NCBI GenBank assembly: GCA_016844935.1
Contig: JAERTK010000163.1
Span: 1-64,000 of the forward strand
Source: Desulfobacteraceae bacterium
GTDB lineage: Bacteria > Desulfobacterota > DSM-4660 > Desulfatiglandales > Desulfatiglandaceae
Length of the DNA: 64,000 bases
Direction of reading: 5' to 3'
Position numbers and translations under genes: made by a program
The notes under the pieces: generated by a model
Databases searched by the model: none
What the model saw: only the letters and a program-made list of their open reading frames with translations
Told to the model about the DNA's origin: nothing
Shown: one piece after another, positions 6,431-58,538 of the stretch
Position numbering within the stretch: position 1 is the first letter of the stretch
Layout: each line of letters opens with the position of its first letter

Positions 6431-7483
6431 TTAGTATGTAAAAGGCCAGTTTTTGAATCCAATCTTAATCCGTTGCCAGATGGCATTCAAGCCGCCCGGT
6501 TCGAAAATCAGAAACAGCATGATCAGAAGACCGAATACGGCAATGTTCCACTCTTCATCATAACGGCCCTGCATGGCGGGAATAACAGCCTCGATTCCCT
6601 GGGCCAGCAGTTTGATGCCCTCCGGTACCACCACAATAAAAATGGCACCGAAGATGGAACCCAGGATGCTTCCCAGGCCCCCGATGACAATCATGGCCAT
6701 ATACTCCACCGAGGACATGAGGGTAAAGTGCTCCGGGTGAATGTGCCCCATGACATAGGCGTACATACCCCCCGCCACACCGGCGTAAAATGAGCTCAAA
6801 GCAAAAGCCGTCACCTTGTATCCCGTGAGGTTGACCCCCATGACTTCCGCTGCGATGTCACGATCCCTCACGGCGATGAACGCCCGTCCGATCCGGGTTC
6901 GGACAATATTCTTGGCCGCGATAATCATCAAAGCGGTTACGATCAGAAGAAAATAATACATGCTCTCGTCCGTATCCAGAACGAGACCCAGCACATTGAC
7001 TTCGGGCATGTACATGCCCCGCTCGCCGCCGGTCAGACTCCCCCAGGTAATGAGGACGTACTCCACCATCACCCCGAAACTCATGGTGGCCATAGCCAGA
7101 TAAAGGCCTTTTAGTCTCAAGCAGGGGATTCCCACCAGAATTCCGGCGCCGGCGCTGACCAGGCCCCCGGCGGGAAGGGTGATCCAGAAAGGCATGCCCA
7201 AGCCTTCTCCCAGCAGGGCGGCCGTATAGGCGCCGATGGCCAGAAAAGCGGCATGCCCCAGGGAAATCTGACCCGTAAACCCGGTGAGGATGTTGAGGCC
7301 CACGGAGGCCACCACCGCAATACAGGAAAGGTTCACCATATAGACAATGTAAGAATCCGAAATATAGGGCAGCATCAGTAAGCAGAGAATAAAGAGGCCC
7401 ATCCAGCATTTGCTCCAGATGGTATCCAGAAGTTTGATATCCTCATGGTAACTCTCACAAAATGTTTTGCTGCGTATGGCCAT
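6431..7483 (-). CDS. livM: LIV-type ABC transporter permease (LivM)
   Basis: 350 residues with about eight to ten hydrophobic helices. LivM hallmarks include GLNILTGFTGQISLGHAAF near residue 65, YLAMATMSFG, and the cytoplasmic AVRDRDIAAEVMGVNL loop that contacts the ATPases. It pairs with LivH to form the membrane channel for the LivK ligand. It begins 5 bases after livH, so the two are co-translated. Unusual for LivM, it carries about 35 extra N-terminal residues before the first membrane helix. Confidence 0.93.
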   Translation of the reverse strand: MAIRSKTFCESYHEDIKLLDTIWSKCWMGLFILCLLMLPYISDSYIVYMVNLSCIAVVASVGLNILTGFTGQISLGHAAFLAIGAYTAALLGEGLGMPFWITLPAGGLVSAGAGILVGIPCLRLKGLYLAMATMSFGVMVEYVLITWGSLTGGERGMYMPEVNVLGLVLDTDESMYYFLLIVTALMIIAAKNIVRTRIGRAFIAVRDRDIAAEVMGVNLTGYKVTAFALSSFYAGVAGGMYAYVMGHIHPEHFTLMSSVEYMAMIVIGGLGSILGSIFGAIFIVVVPEGIKLLAQGIEAVIPAMQGRYDEEWNIAVFGLLIMLFLIFEPGGLNAIWQRIKIGFKNWPFTY

Positions 7484-51362: not shown

Positions 51363-52193
51363 TCAACAGGCCATCAACGGCAGCACGCATGGCCCCAGTA
51401 ACCCGACCGCCTCCGCCCGGTCCAGTAAAACCGTCACGGCGTCCTGCCCTTCATGGCCCAGGTTCCTGCTGAACCGGTTCACGTAAAGGTCGATATGCTG
51501 CTGAATCACTGGACGCGCCATCTCCTGGGCATGGGATCTGACGTAATCCATGACCACCGACGATCCGCTCTCCGCCAGCAAAAGGGATTGACGAATCCGA
51601 TGGTCCACCATCCGCGCCGTGCTCTCCCCCAGATCCCTGCGGATGCCAATACCGCCCAGGGGGATGGGAAGTCCGGTTTCTTCCTCCCACCACTGGCCCA
51701 GATCAAGGATTCCCTCTAGGCCATAGGCATCCAGTGTAAACCGCCCTTCATGAATAACGAGCCCAAAATCCGCTTCACCAACTTTCACCGCCGGCATAAT
51801 TTCGGAAAACACCATTTGCCGGAATCGCGGCTCATATCCCAGGTAGAGGGTCAGGAGCAACCGGGCCGTTGTCAGATTTCCGGGTGCTGCAATGACCGCG
51901 TCTTTGAGGTCTTTCAGGTCCGTCCCGCTCCGGGCCACCAGAATCGGGCCGCAACCCCGCCCCAACGCGCCCCCGGAATGAAGCAAAGCATACTGATCCC
52001 TCACCCTGCCGAAGGCAAAAAATGAAAGCTTGGTAACATCCAGCCTCCCCTCCAAAGCCCATCCGTTCAAAGTCTCCACATCAGCCAGTACCGGATCAAA
52101 GGAGAGAAATTCATCTTCGTTATAGGCCGAAAGACCCCCGAAGATGTAGGTGTCATTGGGGCATGTAGAGTAGCCTAACTTCAGCTTTTTCAA
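51363..52193 (-). CDS. mqnD: 1,4-dihydroxy-6-naphthoate synthase
   Basis: 276 residues. Begins KLKLGYSTCPNDTYIFGGL, the MqnD signature, with DVTKLSFFAFG, the GCGPILVAR segment and DFGLVIHEGRFT. The fold is that of a periplasmic binding protein adapted to catalysis. It converts the cyclic futalosine product to 1,4-dihydroxy-6-naphthoate. It overlaps mqnB by 4 bases and is the last gene of tetR-mqnB-mqnD. Confidence 0.95.
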   Translation of the reverse strand: MKKLKLGYSTCPNDTYIFGGLSAYNEDEFLSFDPVLADVETLNGWALEGRLDVTKLSFFAFGRVRDQYALLHSGGALGRGCGPILVARSGTDLKDLKDAVIAAPGNLTTARLLLTLYLGYEPRFRQMVFSEIMPAVKVGEADFGLVIHEGRFTLDAYGLEGILDLGQWWEEETGLPIPLGGIGIRRDLGESTARMVDHRIRQSLLLAESGSSVVMDYVRSHAQEMARPVIQQHIDLYVNRFSRNLGHEGQDAVTVLLDRAEAVGLLGPCVLPLMAC

Positions 52194-52885
52194 TAATTTT
52201 TCCTTAAATGTTCAAGTAACACTTTTTGTGGTGGGACGATGGCCTTTTCAAAATCCCAGTTGGATTTATCGCGGTCACCGGCGCGATTGCTGATGCCTCT
52301 GATTTCAGCGGTTCTGCATCCAAACCGATGCCCCGCCAGGGCCAGGGCATACCCTTCCATATTTTCGGCCACAACGTTGAACTTAGCACCCCTGGCGCGG
52401 GCATGGTCTTCATTGGCGGAAACCCCGGCTACCGTAAGGGTCCTGCCGCAGGTCGCCTTCCCAATATGCATGGCGTGACACAGCAAAAGGGAAGAAGATC
52501 CTCTATCCAGGGGAATTTCCTGCATAACGCCCGGCAGGTTCATCCGGCGGGTATCACCAATACCGGCGCCCGACACCACGCCCAGTTCTGACAGGATCTC
52601 TGTTTCTGCTACCACCATATCCCCCGGCGCCAGCCCGGAATCGGGCAATGACCCGGCGGAGCCCACCATCACCATAAAATCCGGTCGAGCCATGCTGCAA
52701 AAGGCGCCCAGCGTCGTACAGGCAGAAGCAACGCCCACCCCTGTGATCCCGAGATTGACAACACAATCCCCCATGGTGCCCGCAAACCACGGAAAACCAC
52801 CCACACGCCCTTTCAGACAGGCGCCCGTTGCTTCAGACAACAGTGCCAGTTCCTCTTCCATTGACGCAACAATCCAAAGGTTCAT
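52190..52885 (-). CDS. mqnB: Futalosine hydrolase
   Basis: 231 residues of the nucleoside phosphorylase/MTAN fold: IVASMEEELALL, VGSAGSLPDSGL, and VVAENMEGYALAL with the catalytic Glu and RGISNRAGDRD near the end. It removes hypoxanthine from futalosine. Its ATG shares a base with the stop of the TetR gene and it overlaps mqnD by 4 bases. Together with mqnX this points to the futalosine, not aminofutalosine, branch. Confidence 0.93.
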   Translation of the reverse strand: MNLWIVASMEEELALLSEATGACLKGRVGGFPWFAGTMGDCVVNLGITGVGVASACTTLGAFCSMARPDFMVMVGSAGSLPDSGLAPGDMVVAETEILSELGVVSGAGIGDTRRMNLPGVMQEIPLDRGSSSLLLCHAMHIGKATCGRTLTVAGVSANEDHARARGAKFNVVAENMEGYALALAGHRFGCRTAEIRGISNRAGDRDKSNWDFEKAIVPPQKVLLEHLRKNY

Positions 52886-53565
52886 TATTTTACCTGTTCC
52901 GCCGAAGGCTTTGAGCCGGTCATACCTTGTTTCAGAATGTCAATGATATCTTTGATCTCCCGGTGTGGATCCATTTGAGGGGCCCGGATGCCACTCCCGT
53001 GCTGACCCTGGAACTGCGCGTGATGGGCATGAACAAAACGATCCACCACCGCTTCCACCATAAACGCTGAAATTTTCGAGTTCAGATCGGGGCTCAATTC
53101 ACCTCTGTCAATCCCCTTTTGTATGAGAGACTCTATAAATTCAAGGGATTCCCCTTGAACTTCCGCAACGATCTCCCGTTTGTAGGGAGAATCCCCGGTG
53201 AACACAATGCGGTAATAAATGGCAGCCAGTCCCGGATGGGCATGTATGAAATCAAGACCGGCCAGCATGACTTTTTCAAGACGCGTGAAAAAATCCTCCG
53301 CCTCACTTTCATCGCGCACTTTTTTTAGATAATCTTTCACCCGGCCCAGTGCCATCCGGTATACAAACGCAAAAAGGCCCGCTTTGCTCTTGAAATATTT
53401 AAAAAGCGCGCCTTTTGAAATACCGGCCGCCTTCACCACCACATTCATACTGGCGTTGTTATAGTTTTTGTCCGCGAACTCGTTGATGGCGGCGCTCAGA
53501 ACCCTTTCCCGCTTCGCTTCATCCAGTTTCAGGAACATCTTTGTAACCGTGGTTTGAATACCCAT
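52885..53565 (-). CDS. TetR/AcrR-family regulator heading mqnB-mqnD
   Basis: 226 residues from the ATG at 53565 (GGAAG about 8 bases upstream; a TTG at 53580 is possible). HTH: RERVLSAAINEFADKNYNNAS and VVKAAGISKGALFKYFKSKA (in parts). The large C-terminal domain is unlike the first TetR in the window. Its stop is fused to the mqnB start, so it may adjust menaquinone synthesis or respond to a lipid, but the effector is unknown. The palindrome seen at the mqnE promoter was not found in its own upstream region. Confidence 0.88.
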   Translation of the reverse strand: MGIQTTVTKMFLKLDEAKRERVLSAAINEFADKNYNNASMNVVVKAAGISKGALFKYFKSKAGLFAFVYRMALGRVKDYLKKVRDESEAEDFFTRLEKVMLAGLDFIHAHPGLAAIYYRIVFTGDSPYKREIVAEVQGESLEFIESLIQKGIDRGELSPDLNSKISAFMVEAVVDRFVHAHHAQFQGQHGSGIRAPQMDPHREIKDIIDILKQGMTGSKPSAEQVK

Positions 53566-53800
53566 TCGTGACACTTCCAAAAAAGCTAAGAACGATTATT
53601 ACCATTTTTCATGTGGTTAACATAATTCATCACTTTCATCAAGAATTCACCCCGGTGATAATATTCCGAGGAGAGTCGTCTAAGGTATCTCCCGGTACTG
53701 AAAAATCGATCATGTGCTTGATTAAATGATTGATTTATGATAGGAAAAGCATATTTGAAAGCGCTTTATGACCTTAGCCGGATTTTACAGGAGATCCCAA

Positions 53801-54118
53801 ATGGCAAATAAGGACCAGAAAGAGTGGTACAAAAAGTTTTATGAGGGAACATTTCTGGTTAAAGGCTGGAAATCCCGCATCAACGATATTCTGAGAGGCG
53901 TTTCACCCGAGGACAAAGGTGAAATGGGCGAACTTTTGGAAACCCTCGGGAAAAAGATCGGAATGGAGTGGGCCAAGGACAATGCTGTTCGGAAGATCGA
54001 CACTGCCCAACTTCAACAGTGGGGCAAGGACCTTCAAGACGCCAGCAAAAAAGGCCCTGAAGCGCTGGCTGGCCGGATTCAGAAACTGAATGCGGAAGTG
54101 GATAAAAAACTTGCCTGA
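53801..54118 (+). CDS. Small helical protein near PHA genes
   Basis: 105 residues from the ATG at 53801 (AGGAGA 7 bases before). Highly charged with EWYKKFYEGTFLVKGWKSRI and LQDASKKGPEALAGRI, predicted all helix; no membrane segment, no known catalytic motif. I do not recognise a named family. Lying upstream of the AarF-like kinase, lipase, phasin-like and phaR genes, it may be a granule-associated or regulatory protein, but this rests on position only. Confidence 0.7.
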   Translation: MANKDQKEWYKKFYEGTFLVKGWKSRINDILRGVSPEDKGEMGELLETLGKKIGMEWAKDNAVRKIDTAQLQQWGKDLQDASKKGPEALAGRIQKLNAEVDKKLA

Positions 54119-54168: not shown

Positions 54169-54196
54169 TTGACAAAATGACGCCATGCGTTATATT
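54169..54196 (+). promoter_or_regulatory. Promoter of AarF-like gene with inverted repeat
   Basis: TTGACA (54169-54174), 16-base spacer, TATATT (54191-54196). Over spacer and -10 lies ATGACGC-CAT-GCGTTAT (54177-54193), a near-perfect inverted repeat. The same promoter and repeat, differing only in the central bases, stands before the phasin-like gene (57028-57055). Predicted start about 54203. Confidence 0.75.
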
Positions 54197-54232
54197 CCAA
54201 GCTGAACTTAAACCCTTGATAAAATAATCTTG

Positions 54233-56035
54233 ATGAAAACAGAACAAAATCACAACAAACACCCGGAAAAGCCTGTCTCCACCCCCGATTCCCGCAAGAA
54301 AAACAATCCAGCCCATGAGCCCCATGATGCCGTAATGACAAATGAAGTGATCATGCTGGCATTGATGGGTATAAAAAAACCCCATAAGGGTCGAAAAGCA
54401 ACCCTCCCGAGGATGCGACAGCGGGCCATGAAGCTGCTTAAGGAAGCCAAATCCGGGGGAATGCTGGAAGACCTGGTTCGACAGGTGGTCCTGTCCACTG
54501 GAATCGAGTCTTTCCTGCCCCTGCGTTATGCCAAATATCAGCCGGTGGTGAGGGAGGGCATGGTTTTCATGATGTCATCCATGCCCCTCTCGCGACTGGC
54601 CCCTAAAATTGTCGATCAACTGCTTCTCCCTGAAAACGCCTCATTCGGTAAACGTCTTTTTACGTTGATCAAAGACATGCCCACGCTCCAGAAACTGGGG
54701 CAGATCATCTGCCGAAGTCCGGGGCTGGAACCGGCCTTTAAAAATGAACTCATTGATCTGGAAGACAACATTCAGACGCTTTCCTACGCCCGAATTCGTC
54801 CTTCCCTCTTGAAGGAGATTGCCAAACATCCTCCCGATTCGATCACACCTGAAAACCGCATCCTGGCAGAGGCATCGGTCTGCGCAGTGGTGCCGGCACA
54901 GATCACTTCAGACAAGGGCAAAAAGACATCTGATGCCGTATTGAAAATCGTCAAACCAAAAGTCAGGAAAAACATGGCCGCGGACCTGGTCCTTCTGGAT
55001 CAACTCATGGTCTTCCTGGACCGCAATAAAGCTGCCTGGGACCTGGGGGATTTCAATTTCAGCGCCACCCTTGCCCAGGTGGGCACCATTTTGGCCAATG
55101 AGATAAACCTCGAATCCGAGCAGAAGAATCTTGATCGGATGGGTTTTCATTTCAAAAACAACAAGACGGTCGTGGTCCCTGAAAAACTTGCCGTATCCAC
55201 CCCCGGCATGACCGTCATGAGCCGGGTGGAAGGTAGAAAAATTACGGATGTGGCCGGTCTCAGGAAAAAAGAGCGCCGAAAACTGGCGGGTGCACTGGCA
55301 AAGACGTGCATCCTGCGCCCCATTCAGGATATTCGGGAGGGGGGGCTTTTCCACGGAGATCCGCACGCCGGGAACATCGCCTACACATTTAAAAAAGGCC
55401 GTCCCCGCCTCATCTTTTACGACTGGGGGATGCTCGGGCATTTGAATAAGCTTGAACGATTTGCCATGATCCTGCTCACCCTTGGACTCATGACGAACAG
55501 TTCAAATCTGGTCTTCTATACGGCCGACATCATCACAAAGGGACAGCTTTCCACCCGTACCCCCATGCGTAAGGCCGCCAAGCGCATCATCGCCGAAGGG
55601 ATTCAGATGCAGGGTCAGGGAACCAGCGGAATGCTCTCTGCCATCGAATACCTCTTTGAAAAATTCACCCATGAGGGGGTGGTTTTCTCAGCGGATCTCA
55701 TGATGTACGAAAAGGCCATGGTTACCCTGAGAGGGGTGCTTTCAGACGTGGATCCCACCTTCAACCGGGATGCTTACATGACCTGGGCCGCCGTTACATC
55801 CCTGGTGGATGATGCAATTCGTTTCCGTCTCCTGAAGCTTTTCCTGAAAGAGGCCTGGTCACTCTATCATCACAGCCTGGTGCTTTTCCTGGATATGCAA
55901 AAGGTGGTATTCTGGTTTCTAAAAGACCTGGCGCGGGTCTCCCTGAAATCCCCCCACGTGTTTTCCAACATACCGGCGCCGGTTTACAGTTCCCTCGATG
56001 GCATTCACAGGTCATTTCCCCCTTCGAGACTCTAA
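54233..56035 (+). CDS. AarF/ABC1 (UbiB-like) atypical kinase
   Basis: 600 residues. Kinase-like motifs: AEASVCAVVPAQI (Ala-rich loop, replacing the usual KxGQ), VLKIVKPKVRKNM with the Lys, NEINLESEQKNLDRM, catalytic HGDPHAGNI and YDWGMLG. A long helical N-terminus of about 200 residues precedes it. ABC1 proteins are ATPases/kinases tied to quinone biosynthesis and lipid handling. Here it shares a promoter element with the phasin-like gene, which links it to PHA granules or lipid metabolism. No ribosome site precedes the ATG (a TTG lies one codon upstream). Confidence 0.85.
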   Translation: MKTEQNHNKHPEKPVSTPDSRKKNNPAHEPHDAVMTNEVIMLALMGIKKPHKGRKATLPRMRQRAMKLLKEAKSGGMLEDLVRQVVLSTGIESFLPLRYAKYQPVVREGMVFMMSSMPLSRLAPKIVDQLLLPENASFGKRLFTLIKDMPTLQKLGQIICRSPGLEPAFKNELIDLEDNIQTLSYARIRPSLLKEIAKHPPDSITPENRILAEASVCAVVPAQITSDKGKKTSDAVLKIVKPKVRKNMAADLVLLDQLMVFLDRNKAAWDLGDFNFSATLAQVGTILANEINLESEQKNLDRMGFHFKNNKTVVVPEKLAVSTPGMTVMSRVEGRKITDVAGLRKKERRKLAGALAKTCILRPIQDIREGGLFHGDPHAGNIAYTFKKGRPRLIFYDWGMLGHLNKLERFAMILLTLGLMTNSSNLVFYTADIITKGQLSTRTPMRKAAKRIIAEGIQMQGQGTSGMLSAIEYLFEKFTHEGVVFSADLMMYEKAMVTLRGVLSDVDPTFNRDAYMTWAAVTSLVDDAIRFRLLKLFLKEAWSLYHHSLVLFLDMQKVVFWFLKDLARVSLKSPHVFSNIPAPVYSSLDGIHRSFPPSRL

Positions 56036-56919
56036 AAACCTGCACCCTCCTCCATATACGACAAAACACGCTCGAATGTGGGTCCATGGTATAAACAGGC
56101 CACATGGCCCATGGGCACGGTCTGTTCACCTTTCCATCCCGCAGGCGGCATCAGGGATTCCGCGGGAAGCACCATATTGTCCACCGGGGAATAGAACGCC
56201 ACGCACGGCAGTTGGGTTGCGGGCTGAAAATTTTGCAATTCCCCCACAAGAGGTCCCTGATAACAGAGGCTCTTCGCCAATGGACCCAGGCCCACCACCG
56301 CCATTTTGCTCCCCTTGAAGGGCGATACCAGGGTAATCACCCGTCGAATCCGGGAAGAAGAGGATCCGTCCAGATTACCCGCGTAGGTCTTGGCCAGAAG
56401 CCCGCCGAGGCTGTGCCCCACCATCACCACATCTCCACCGGGGAAATCCCTTTCAACCTGTTTCATCCATGTTTCAAATTTTTCGTAAATACCCCAGAAG
56501 GTAGTGTTCCGACTGCTGTAGGAAAAAGCATAAATTCGGTTGTATCCTTTGCGCTTGAGCCGCCAGCGATAATAGGTCCATGCGCTGGCATTGTGATAGA
56601 TGCCGTGAATCAGAACCACGGTCGTATGGACTCTGATGTCGGTTTGGGGATGGATTGGGGTAAGGCGTCTTATGCGATCGTGATCCGGCTTCCACAATCT
56701 TTTCACAAACCCCAGCGGAAAAAGGCACACCACCAGGATATTGCTGCAGGTACTGGACAAAATTCCCCTGAACAACCACACAAACGGCTTGCCGTTTGAC
56801 TGCCGATCCAGCGTCATACCATAGGAGGAATTGGCGGCCTCATACCAGAAAATCAGGTAGGTGAACACCGGTAAAACCAAAAAAACAACGATCAGAACGA
56901 GAAGAATCAAGTTCCACAT
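56032..56919 (-). CDS. Membrane-anchored lipase/esterase-like hydrolase
   Basis: 295 residues. An N-terminal membrane helix (about 3-24) is followed by a cytoplasmic or periplasmic alpha/beta hydrolase: VVLIHGIYHNASAW, nucleophile elbow MVGHSLGGLLAKTYAG (Ser in GHSLGG), and a later VACLYHGP with the His. It resembles lipases of the acylglycerol type. In this neighbourhood a PHA depolymerase or lipid-droplet hydrolase is conceivable. It converges on the AarF-like gene (4-base overlap of ends). Confidence 0.82.
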   Translation of the reverse strand: MWNLILLVLIVVFLVLPVFTYLIFWYEAANSSYGMTLDRQSNGKPFVWLFRGILSSTCSNILVVCLFPLGFVKRLWKPDHDRIRRLTPIHPQTDIRVHTTVVLIHGIYHNASAWTYYRWRLKRKGYNRIYAFSYSSRNTTFWGIYEKFETWMKQVERDFPGGDVVMVGHSLGGLLAKTYAGNLDGSSSSRIRRVITLVSPFKGSKMAVVGLGPLAKSLCYQGPLVGELQNFQPATQLPCVAFYSPVDNMVLPAESLMPPAGWKGEQTVPMGHVACLYHGPTFERVLSYMEEGAGF

Positions 56920-57027
56920 AAGGGTTTCTCATCACGTCTTATAAAGTATTTACAATTGCTTAACTCTATTTCAAAAAATACAGCCAGAAGTACCGGGAAA
57001 AGATTCAAGAAAAAAATCACATAACCC

Positions 57028-57055
57028 TTGACAAAATGACGCACCGCGTTATATT
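57028..57055 (+). promoter_or_regulatory. Promoter of phasin-like gene with inverted repeat
   Basis: TTGACA (57028-57033), 16-base spacer, TATATT (57050-57055), with ATGACGC-ACC-GCGTTAT at 57036-57052. Apart from the three bases of the loop (CAT versus ACC) it equals the AarF promoter at 54169-54196. Predicted start near 57062; leader of about 65 bases. Confidence 0.78.
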
Positions 57056-57127: not shown

Positions 57128-57736
57128 ATGGCCACAAAAAAGCAGACTACCAAAGCAAAAGCCAAAAAAACAGAGAAAAAGACTGAATCCAATTTTCACG
57201 CGATCCGCTCCCTCCACAAAACCAGGGAAAACTGGGTCGACACAGCTAAAGACTACAACGAAAAGTACATCACAAAACCCTTTGAAAGCGGCAAAGATTT
57301 TGTCGTGGACATGAAAAACGAACCCAAAAAGACCTTTGGCGATATTTTTGATAATGGCAAAAGTTTTGTGGAAGATGCCAAAAAAGACCCGAAGAAGGTA
57401 TGGACCGATCTGGTGGAGGGCAGCAAGGATCTGGCTCAGGACACCAGCGAAGATTTTTTCAAGGCAGTGGAAACCATCCTTGACGGCGGCAAGGATTTTT
57501 ATGCCGGCATGGAAAAAGACACCCGTAAAGCACTGGATGATATGCTTGATCGCGGCAAAAAATTCACCGACCAGATTCCCGGCAAAGAAACCGTGGAAAA
57601 AGGGATATCCAGGAGCCTTGAGTCCATTCCCGACCGCCTGAACCTGCCCAGCAAAAAGGACATGGACAAGCTTGCAAAAACCGTTCGCACCCTGAATACC
57701 AAACTCAACACCCTGAGCAAGCAATGTGCCGCCTGA
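57128..57736 (+). CDS. Phasin-like protein with five 22-residue repeats
   Basis: 202 residues from the ATG at 57128 (AGGAGG 10 bases before). After a Lys/Thr-rich N-terminus, residues 55-164 are five consecutive 22-residue units, each beginning GK(D/S/K)F or SKDL: 55-76, 77-98, 99-120, 121-142 and 143-164. The units alternate charged and hydrophobic positions and should form amphipathic helices like apolipoprotein or perilipin repeats, suitable for coating a PHA granule. It is followed by phaR. No similarity to the classical phasin (PF09361) motif is evident. Confidence 0.78.
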   Translation: MATKKQTTKAKAKKTEKKTESNFHAIRSLHKTRENWVDTAKDYNEKYITKPFESGKDFVVDMKNEPKKTFGDIFDNGKSFVEDAKKDPKKVWTDLVEGSKDLAQDTSEDFFKAVETILDGGKDFYAGMEKDTRKALDDMLDRGKKFTDQIPGKETVEKGISRSLESIPDRLNLPSKKDMDKLAKTVRTLNTKLNTLSKQCAA

Positions 57737-57842: not shown

Positions 57843-58538
57843 ATGCACAAAATCAAACGATACGCAAATCGTAAATTGTACGACACCAAAACCAAGAAAT
57901 ACATCACCCTTGACAAAATCGCAAAGCTTCTCAAAGCGGGCGAAGAGGTATCGGTTCTGGACAATAAAACCGGGGAAGACATCACGGCTGCCACGGTTTC
58001 CCAAATCCTTGCGCGATCCAAAAGAACGCAGACAGATAATGGCGCATCGAACGTCATGATTCAGCTCCTTCGAAAAGGCCCGGGTACCCTGGTAGACTAT
58101 GGAAGAAAATATATCTCATTGTGGGACCGGGCACTGACCATGGCCGATGAAGAGATCGACAGACTCGTGGAAAGGCTCGTTAATGAAAAAGAAATCACCC
58201 CCAGCGAGGGCAACAGGCTCAAAAAAGATATGTTGAACCGTGCCGAGGACCTGAAGAGATGGATTGCGGAAAAAACCGATCAGCGGGTCAATGAGGCCCT
58301 TGATCTCATGAACCTGGCCAGCCGGGAACAAGTTTTTCAGCTCACGGAAAAGATCGACAAACTGACCCGGAAAGTACAAAATCTGGAAAAAAAGCTGGCC
58401 AAAAAAGCCAAGGAAGAGGCCGCCCGAAAAGCGGCCGAGCGCCGCGCACAAGAACCCAGGGCAAAGGTGATTCCCATGCCAACAAACGACGTCACACCGG
58501 CAGACCCGCCTGAAAACCAAGGGGCGGAAACCCTGTAG
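57843..58538 (+). CDS. phaR: PHA synthesis regulator PhaR
   Basis: 231 residues. Starts HKIKRYANRKLYDTKTKKYI, the PF07879 DNA-binding signature of PhaR, followed by LDKIAKLLKAGEEVSVLDNKTGEDIT. The C-terminal half is coiled coil with an Ala/Lys-rich stretch. PhaR binds PHA granules and DNA; it represses phasin genes until granules form. GGAGG lies 6 bases before the ATG. The inverted repeat shared by the AarF and phasin promoters is the natural candidate target. Confidence 0.93.
   Translation: MHKIKRYANRKLYDTKTKKYITLDKIAKLLKAGEEVSVLDNKTGEDITAATVSQILARSKRTQTDNGASNVMIQLLRKGPGTLVDYGRKYISLWDRALTMADEEIDRLVERLVNEKEITPSEGNRLKKDMLNRAEDLKRWIAEKTDQRVNEALDLMNLASREQVFQLTEKIDKLTRKVQNLEKKLAKKAKEEAARKAAERRAQEPRAKVIPMPTNDVTPADPPENQGAETL

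Follow-up and report, generated by a model that had tools for sequence, protein, structure and literature searches.

The closest described counterpart of the locus reported here is the alpha-proteobacterial PhaR/AniA regulon, in which a regulator with a PHB_acc_N domain governs phasin genes through sites that have the core YGC-RNY-GCR, occur in pairs at phasin promoters and overlap promoter elements. In B. diazoefficiens the PhaR site has been given as TGCRNYGCASMA (PMC6201568) and as NGCN3GC[GA] (PMC10888616); in Sinorhizobium meliloti it is a palindrome with the core YGCRNYGCR and AT-rich arms, present in two copies at phaP1 and phaP2 (PMC12542648). The present locus resembles these systems in the regulator domain, the phasin genes, the core, the pairing of sites and their overlap with promoter elements, and the S. 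meliloti sites also in the AT-rich arms. It differs in a core fixed as CGC...GCG between ATGA and TTAT arms, in a regulator (PhaR2) that has Lys11 and a long, helical, phasin-like C-terminal region, and in its predicted targets, which comprise an ABC1 kinase gene and, in relatives, genes for wax-ester synthase/DGAT (WS/DGAT). It lies in a window (the whole stretch of 64,000 nucleotides that was analysed) with the following features:

52885-53580, minus strand: TetR-family regulator (PF00440, 52.0 bits)
53801-54118, plus strand: small conserved gene before the kinase, of no known family (about 58-74% identity in G001, G002, G003, G004 and G045)
54169-54196, plus strand: promoter of the ABC1 kinase gene, with -35 TTGACA at 54169-54174, -10 TATATT at 54191-54196 and a 16-nt spacer (from the sequence)
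54177-54193: operator 1, a PhaR-type CGC box, ATGACGCCATGCGTTAT, over spacer and -10, conserved before orthologous kinase genes
54230-56035, plus strand: ABC1 atypical kinase (PF03109, 97.9 bits against a cut-off of 22.9; first in-frame ATG at 54233)
56032-56919, minus strand: alpha/beta hydrolase, divergent from the phasin-like gene (PF12697, 47.4 bits)
57028-57055, plus strand: promoter of the phasin-like/phaR operon, with -35 TTGACA at 57028-57033, -10 TATATT at 57050-57055 and a 16-nt spacer (from the sequence)
57036-57052: operator 2, a PhaR-type CGC box, ATGACGCACCGCGTTAT, conserved in relatives
57128-57736, plus strand: phasin-like granule-coat protein (PF05597, 23.0 bits, below the cut-off of 28.8)
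57843-58538, plus strand: PhaR-like regulator PhaR2, 231 aa, Lys11 type (PF07879, PHB_acc_N, 82.7 bits against 25)

Here and below, G, L and C numbers denote genomes, loci and contigs. By profile scores the gene neighbours are those named in the preliminary description of this DNA (ABC1 kinase, phasin-like, PhaR-like). Counterparts of the phasin-like protein in other genomes, encoded downstream of a CGC box, pass PF05597 with 32.7-41.0 bits. Against the NCBIfam PhaR equivalog TIGR01848, the regulator reaches 66.4 bits, over residues 4-78 only, and stays below the cut-off of 109.45; it is thus named PhaR-like (PhaR2) and not canonical PhaR. The alpha/beta hydrolase gene sits between the kinase and phasin genes in G002, G045 and G027 as well, and its co-regulation is likely, since only 117 bp separate its start from operator 2. 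The TetR gene belongs to a run (window 51363-53580) with a futalosine hydrolase gene and a menaquinone-biosynthesis gene, a block conserved in relatives, and its product may regulate menaquinone synthesis.

Direct reading of the sequence bears out both promoters as they had been described, TTGACA-N16-TATATT with the inverted repeat ATGACGC-N3-GCGTTAT laid over spacer and -10, and also their identity outside the loop: the two 28-mers agree in 25 of 28 positions, and all three differences make up the 3-base loop of the repeat. In a search of the window that allowed three mismatches, operators 1 and 2 are the only perfect copies; they are also the only exact ones in the 6.09-Mb genome, where base counts predict about 0.05, so that the pair is far beyond chance. 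Elsewhere in this genome each strand has about 170 near matches with two or three mismatches, modestly more than the 100-116 counted for the reversed pattern; the places with two mismatches may include additional weak targets.

The core of operator 2, CGC-ACC-GCG, fits YGC-RNY-GCR, and that of operator 1, CGC-CAT-GCG, is one base off RNY (CAT); both operators have CGC...GCG half-sites and not the TGC...GCA type of B. diazoefficiens. The motif had been taken for a new consensus, different from the published ones. Its core, CGC-N3-GCG, is a form of both YGC-RNY-GCR and NGCN3GC[GA]; what is new is the strict CGC form with ATGA and TTAT arms, and its tie to PhaR proteins of the Lys11 type.

A search with relatives of PhaR2 gave 80 named loci, and 27 from among the nearest, all of Desulfobacterota and Candidatus Wallbacteria, were compared. 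Of these 27 phaR/phasin loci, 21 have the exact pattern ATRACGC-N3-GCGTYAT no further than 1.9 kb upstream of phaR, whereas for 1000 palindromes permuted at constant composition the number averaged 0.009 and never exceeded 4. Over whole genomes, 25 of 32 contain the exact pattern and 0 of 32 the reversed control; genomes from unrelated clades (Balneolales, Rhodothermia and an unclassified bacterium) have one copy each, directly before phaR. The box precedes the phasin-phaR operon in G002, G027, G045 and G089, phaR in G021, and the kinase gene in G002, G003, G005 and G045. Fifty-five sites at phaR, phasin, kinase and WS/DGAT loci yield the consensus ATGACGC-RNY-GCGTYAT, the central triplet starting with R at 51 of them and ending with Y at 54. 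A TTGAC is found within 16 nt of 39 of these 55 assigned sites (and of 1 of 17 unassigned ones); it usually stands 8-9 nt upstream, which places the box over the spacer and the -10 element.

The agreement of the kinase and phasin-like promoters at 25 positions could also reflect the copying of a strong promoter that contains no operator. In the relatives, however, the spacing between box and -35 varies by one base, the box occurs in both orientations, and many phaR loci have paired boxes 26-29 bp apart; the shifting spacing and the two orientations fit an operator and not a copied promoter, and we regard copying as extremely improbable.

Some exact sites were set aside. The extra ones in G101 and G102, some with shared flanks and most without TTGAC, were classed as dispersed palindromes or left unassigned, and the sites in G119 and G120 other than those at phaR lie inside GC-rich ORFs and were taken as chance. 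The perfect palindromes of G101 (L213, L218, L219), ATGACGCAATGCGTCAT, which share their flanks and are dispersed away from promoters, look like small repeats or decoy sites. In the related genomes G105 and G106 (L236, L238), a box or box pair lies at the 3' side of an FKBP-type isomerase gene, where the target could be a small RNA or an unrecognised gene.

As the best explanation of the operators, PhaR2 (57843-58538) very probably binds both and represses from them until nascent granules titrate it off. An oligomer of PhaR2 on the palindrome ATRACGC-RNY-GCGTYAT, over spacer and -10, would block RNA polymerase; a storage granule, as it forms, would draw PhaR2 away from the operators, and its release would allow joint production of the phasin-like protein, the ABC1 kinase and PhaR2 itself, and probably of the divergent alpha/beta hydrolase as well. 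For PhaR2 itself we infer binding, repression, granule titration and granule content; titration by granules is known for the PhaR family and is carried over to it. That PhaR regulates both sites, as had been proposed, is strongly supported at the sequence level by the conservation of the box, by natural deletions and by single-site genomes, and PhaR2 is the common neighbour of the box across phyla. Regulation by PhaR would thereby be extended to further phyla, Desulfobacterota among them, and have a clear candidate operator there.

Two further proteins come into question as the binder. The TetR-family protein encoded at 52885-53580 could bind both palindromes: its gene is about 0.6 kb from operator 1, and a palindrome at the -10 would suit a TetR dimer, such operators being usual for TetR repressors. 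Yet there is no site near its own promoter, an ortholog (E<=1e-10) is absent from the box-bearing genomes G005 and G027, the G021 ortholog (50%) lies with menaquinone genes on another contig without a box, and four more homologues have loci without any site. In the congener G004 (80% complete assembly), moreover, the module is cut to a 28-aa PhaR remnant and zero sites are left, while the TetR gene is intact; we therefore give the TetR protein next to no chance. Alternatively, some other conserved regulator could bind the box, phaR being merely one of its targets, since conservation of the box marks a shared target set and says nothing of the binder; in G005 (94% complete assembly) the kinase gene has a near-perfect box and no PhaR was found. 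This is quite unlikely, given that phaR is the recurrent neighbour of the box across phyla, that the type of box follows the type of residue 11 in PhaR (see below), and that the core fits the published PhaR footprints.

In G004 (L250, G004:C255) the interval from the small gene to the next gene has lost the kinase, hydrolase and phasin genes and the greater part of phaR, the TetR and small genes being intact. In the congener G001 the box stands directly before the apparent last codons of the kinase (an internal deletion; L249, G001:C264:6493; L046), and its PhaR reads NRELYN in place of NRKLYD; the PhaR2 module of this genome may be decaying.

The kinase at 54230-56035 shares with UbiB, Coq8 and ABC1K the ABC1 domain and its KxGQ and HGDxHxGN motifs, and has the catalytic motifs (KLGQ, AEASVCAV, VLKIVKP, HGDPHAGN, DWG); it differs from them as a divergent subclade tied by position and operator to the phasin/PhaR module. 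It scores 140 bits against the UbiB equivalog TIGR01982, far below the cut-off of 487.55. Its orthologs form a distinct group: with the window protein as query they score about 300 bits or higher, ordinary ABC1 proteins less than 92, and three intermediates lie near 245 bits. A box precedes 7 of the 11 testable genes of this subclade (G000, G002, G003, G005, G045, G104, G106; three with one mismatch) and none of 22 ABC1 genes outside it (P=8e-5, kinship ignored); the kinase genes of G021, G027 and G112 show no box in the stretch examined. In G099 a WS/DGAT gene, phaR and the kinase gene, here interrupted by a frameshift, are consecutive and have two boxes. Kinase and PhaR2 also co-occur among 99 relatives (P=6e-6, kinship ignored).

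Membership of the kinase in a PhaR-like regulon is well supported by these comparisons. The preliminary description had placed it in the PHA regulon; the regulon membership holds and is conserved in several genera, and PHA as the stored material does not follow. For ABC1/UbiB in combination with phasin or PhaR, searches of the accessible literature gave no relevant hit. In plastoglobules, the lipid droplets of plastids, six ABC1K are among 30 core proteins (PMC4915526), which by analogy may hint at the role of the window kinase. An orphan ABC1 subclade would be tied to storage granules by shared promoter control, and the ABC1 kinases of bacteria would gain a new context, open to direct testing, apart from the synthesis of quinones.

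As to what is stored, the box stands before WS/DGAT genes in six genomes, often as one of two boxes between them and a divergent phasin-like gene. G103 has a box before a patatin-like gene, and in G002 and G003 the WS/DGAT genes lack one. An association of the motif with phasin, phaR and phaC genes had been expected, and it is found for phaR/phasin loci and at 0 of 12 phaC loci. Among the targets of PhaR, phaC is frequently missing. The contrast between WS/DGAT and phaC in having a box (P=0.065 by gene, P=0.014 by genome) is suggestive only. Several PhaR2 genomes, including those of the culturable Desulfatibacillum alkenivorans DSM 16219 and of G021 (98% complete), showed no PHA synthase, and these two also lack PF03007; in D. 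alkenivorans PhaR2 comes with a one-mismatch box, and no kinase of the window subclade was identified. The window genome encodes a PHA synthase, with PF03007 giving no match. Because the box fronts WS/DGAT genes and none of the phaC genes, and because some PhaR2 genomes are without phaC, the term PHA regulon is too narrow, and the set of CGC boxes is read here, from sequence comparisons, as a putative storage-granule regulon under a specialised PhaR paralogue. Its store is likely wax ester or TAG in some relatives and possibly PHA in the window genome.

The window genome also encodes a second, shorter PhaR (PhaR1), on contig C12, which carries a class III PHA synthase gene as well. PhaR1 resembles PhaR2 in the family of its DNA-binding domain and in the layout of the box before its own gene; it differs in Arg11, in boxes of the TGC type (TGCATTGCA and TGCAATGCA) and in the place of the second box, which precedes a PHB depolymerase gene. 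The PhaR1 loci of G000, G002 and G003 each have two AT-armed TGC boxes, one before phaR1 and one at the far side of the cluster. The PHA-linked PhaR of the window genome thus appears to be PhaR1, not PhaR2. A CAC-type palindrome in G002:C57, located 3' of phaR1, was given up and the TGC boxes preferred.

When box type was compared with PhaR sequence across 117 PhaR loci, PhaR with Lys11 (window numbering) was found with CGC boxes at 24 loci and a TGC box at 1, and PhaR with Arg11 with TGC boxes at 14 loci and a CGC box at 1; shuffled upstream regions gave about 0.5 per cell of this table. Residue 11 alone separates the sets of PhaR sorted by box, 31 to 17 (sorted by hand, with L135 left out). 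Among the exceptions are L135, which combines Arg11 with a CGC box, and G001, which has Glu11; 26 of 50 Lys-type loci have no AT-armed box within 1 kb. On a poorly resolved tree both labels are clustered, the Lys/Arg one needing 6 changes and the CGC/TGC one 4, and only one independent pair falls on well-supported branches; a single origin is possible. Arg-type PhaR is not strictly confined to TGC, because C is likewise allowed at this position in the motif published for S. meliloti. In view of the exceptions, the clustering on the tree and the S. meliloti motif, we put forward the pairing of Lys11 with CGC and Arg11 with TGC as a hypothesis.

In the model of the PhaR2 N-terminal domain (pLDDT 95.9), residue 11 immediately precedes a short strand in the N-terminal sheet. 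Sequence and fold searches for solved relatives of this domain returned only coiled coils or weak, unrelated matches; the pairing would be a candidate one-residue code for a DNA-binding domain with no solved relative found. It is conceivable, if rather doubtful, that the genome runs two insulated PhaRs, an Arg11/TGC one for PHA and a Lys11/CGC one for wax-ester/TAG droplets including the ABC1 kinase, with residue 11 as the switch; the kinase would then be a droplet kinase and the bacterial equivalent of plastoglobule ABC1K.

Some loci encode further proteins beside phaR. In L121 (5153-5707) a degenerate PhaR-like protein (IKQYANGRYFDEVNKKY) is encoded between the phasin and phaR genes, and the exceptional PhaR of L135 (YANGRLYDT) resembles it. 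In L120 a gene at 6792-7430 with a box of its own encodes a protein with an FFLEELY motif (NF047641; only the L120 protein was scored); similar ORFs recur beside phaR in L121, L118 and L115, and in L118 and L115 they are followed by a patatin-like ORF with a GGGARG motif.
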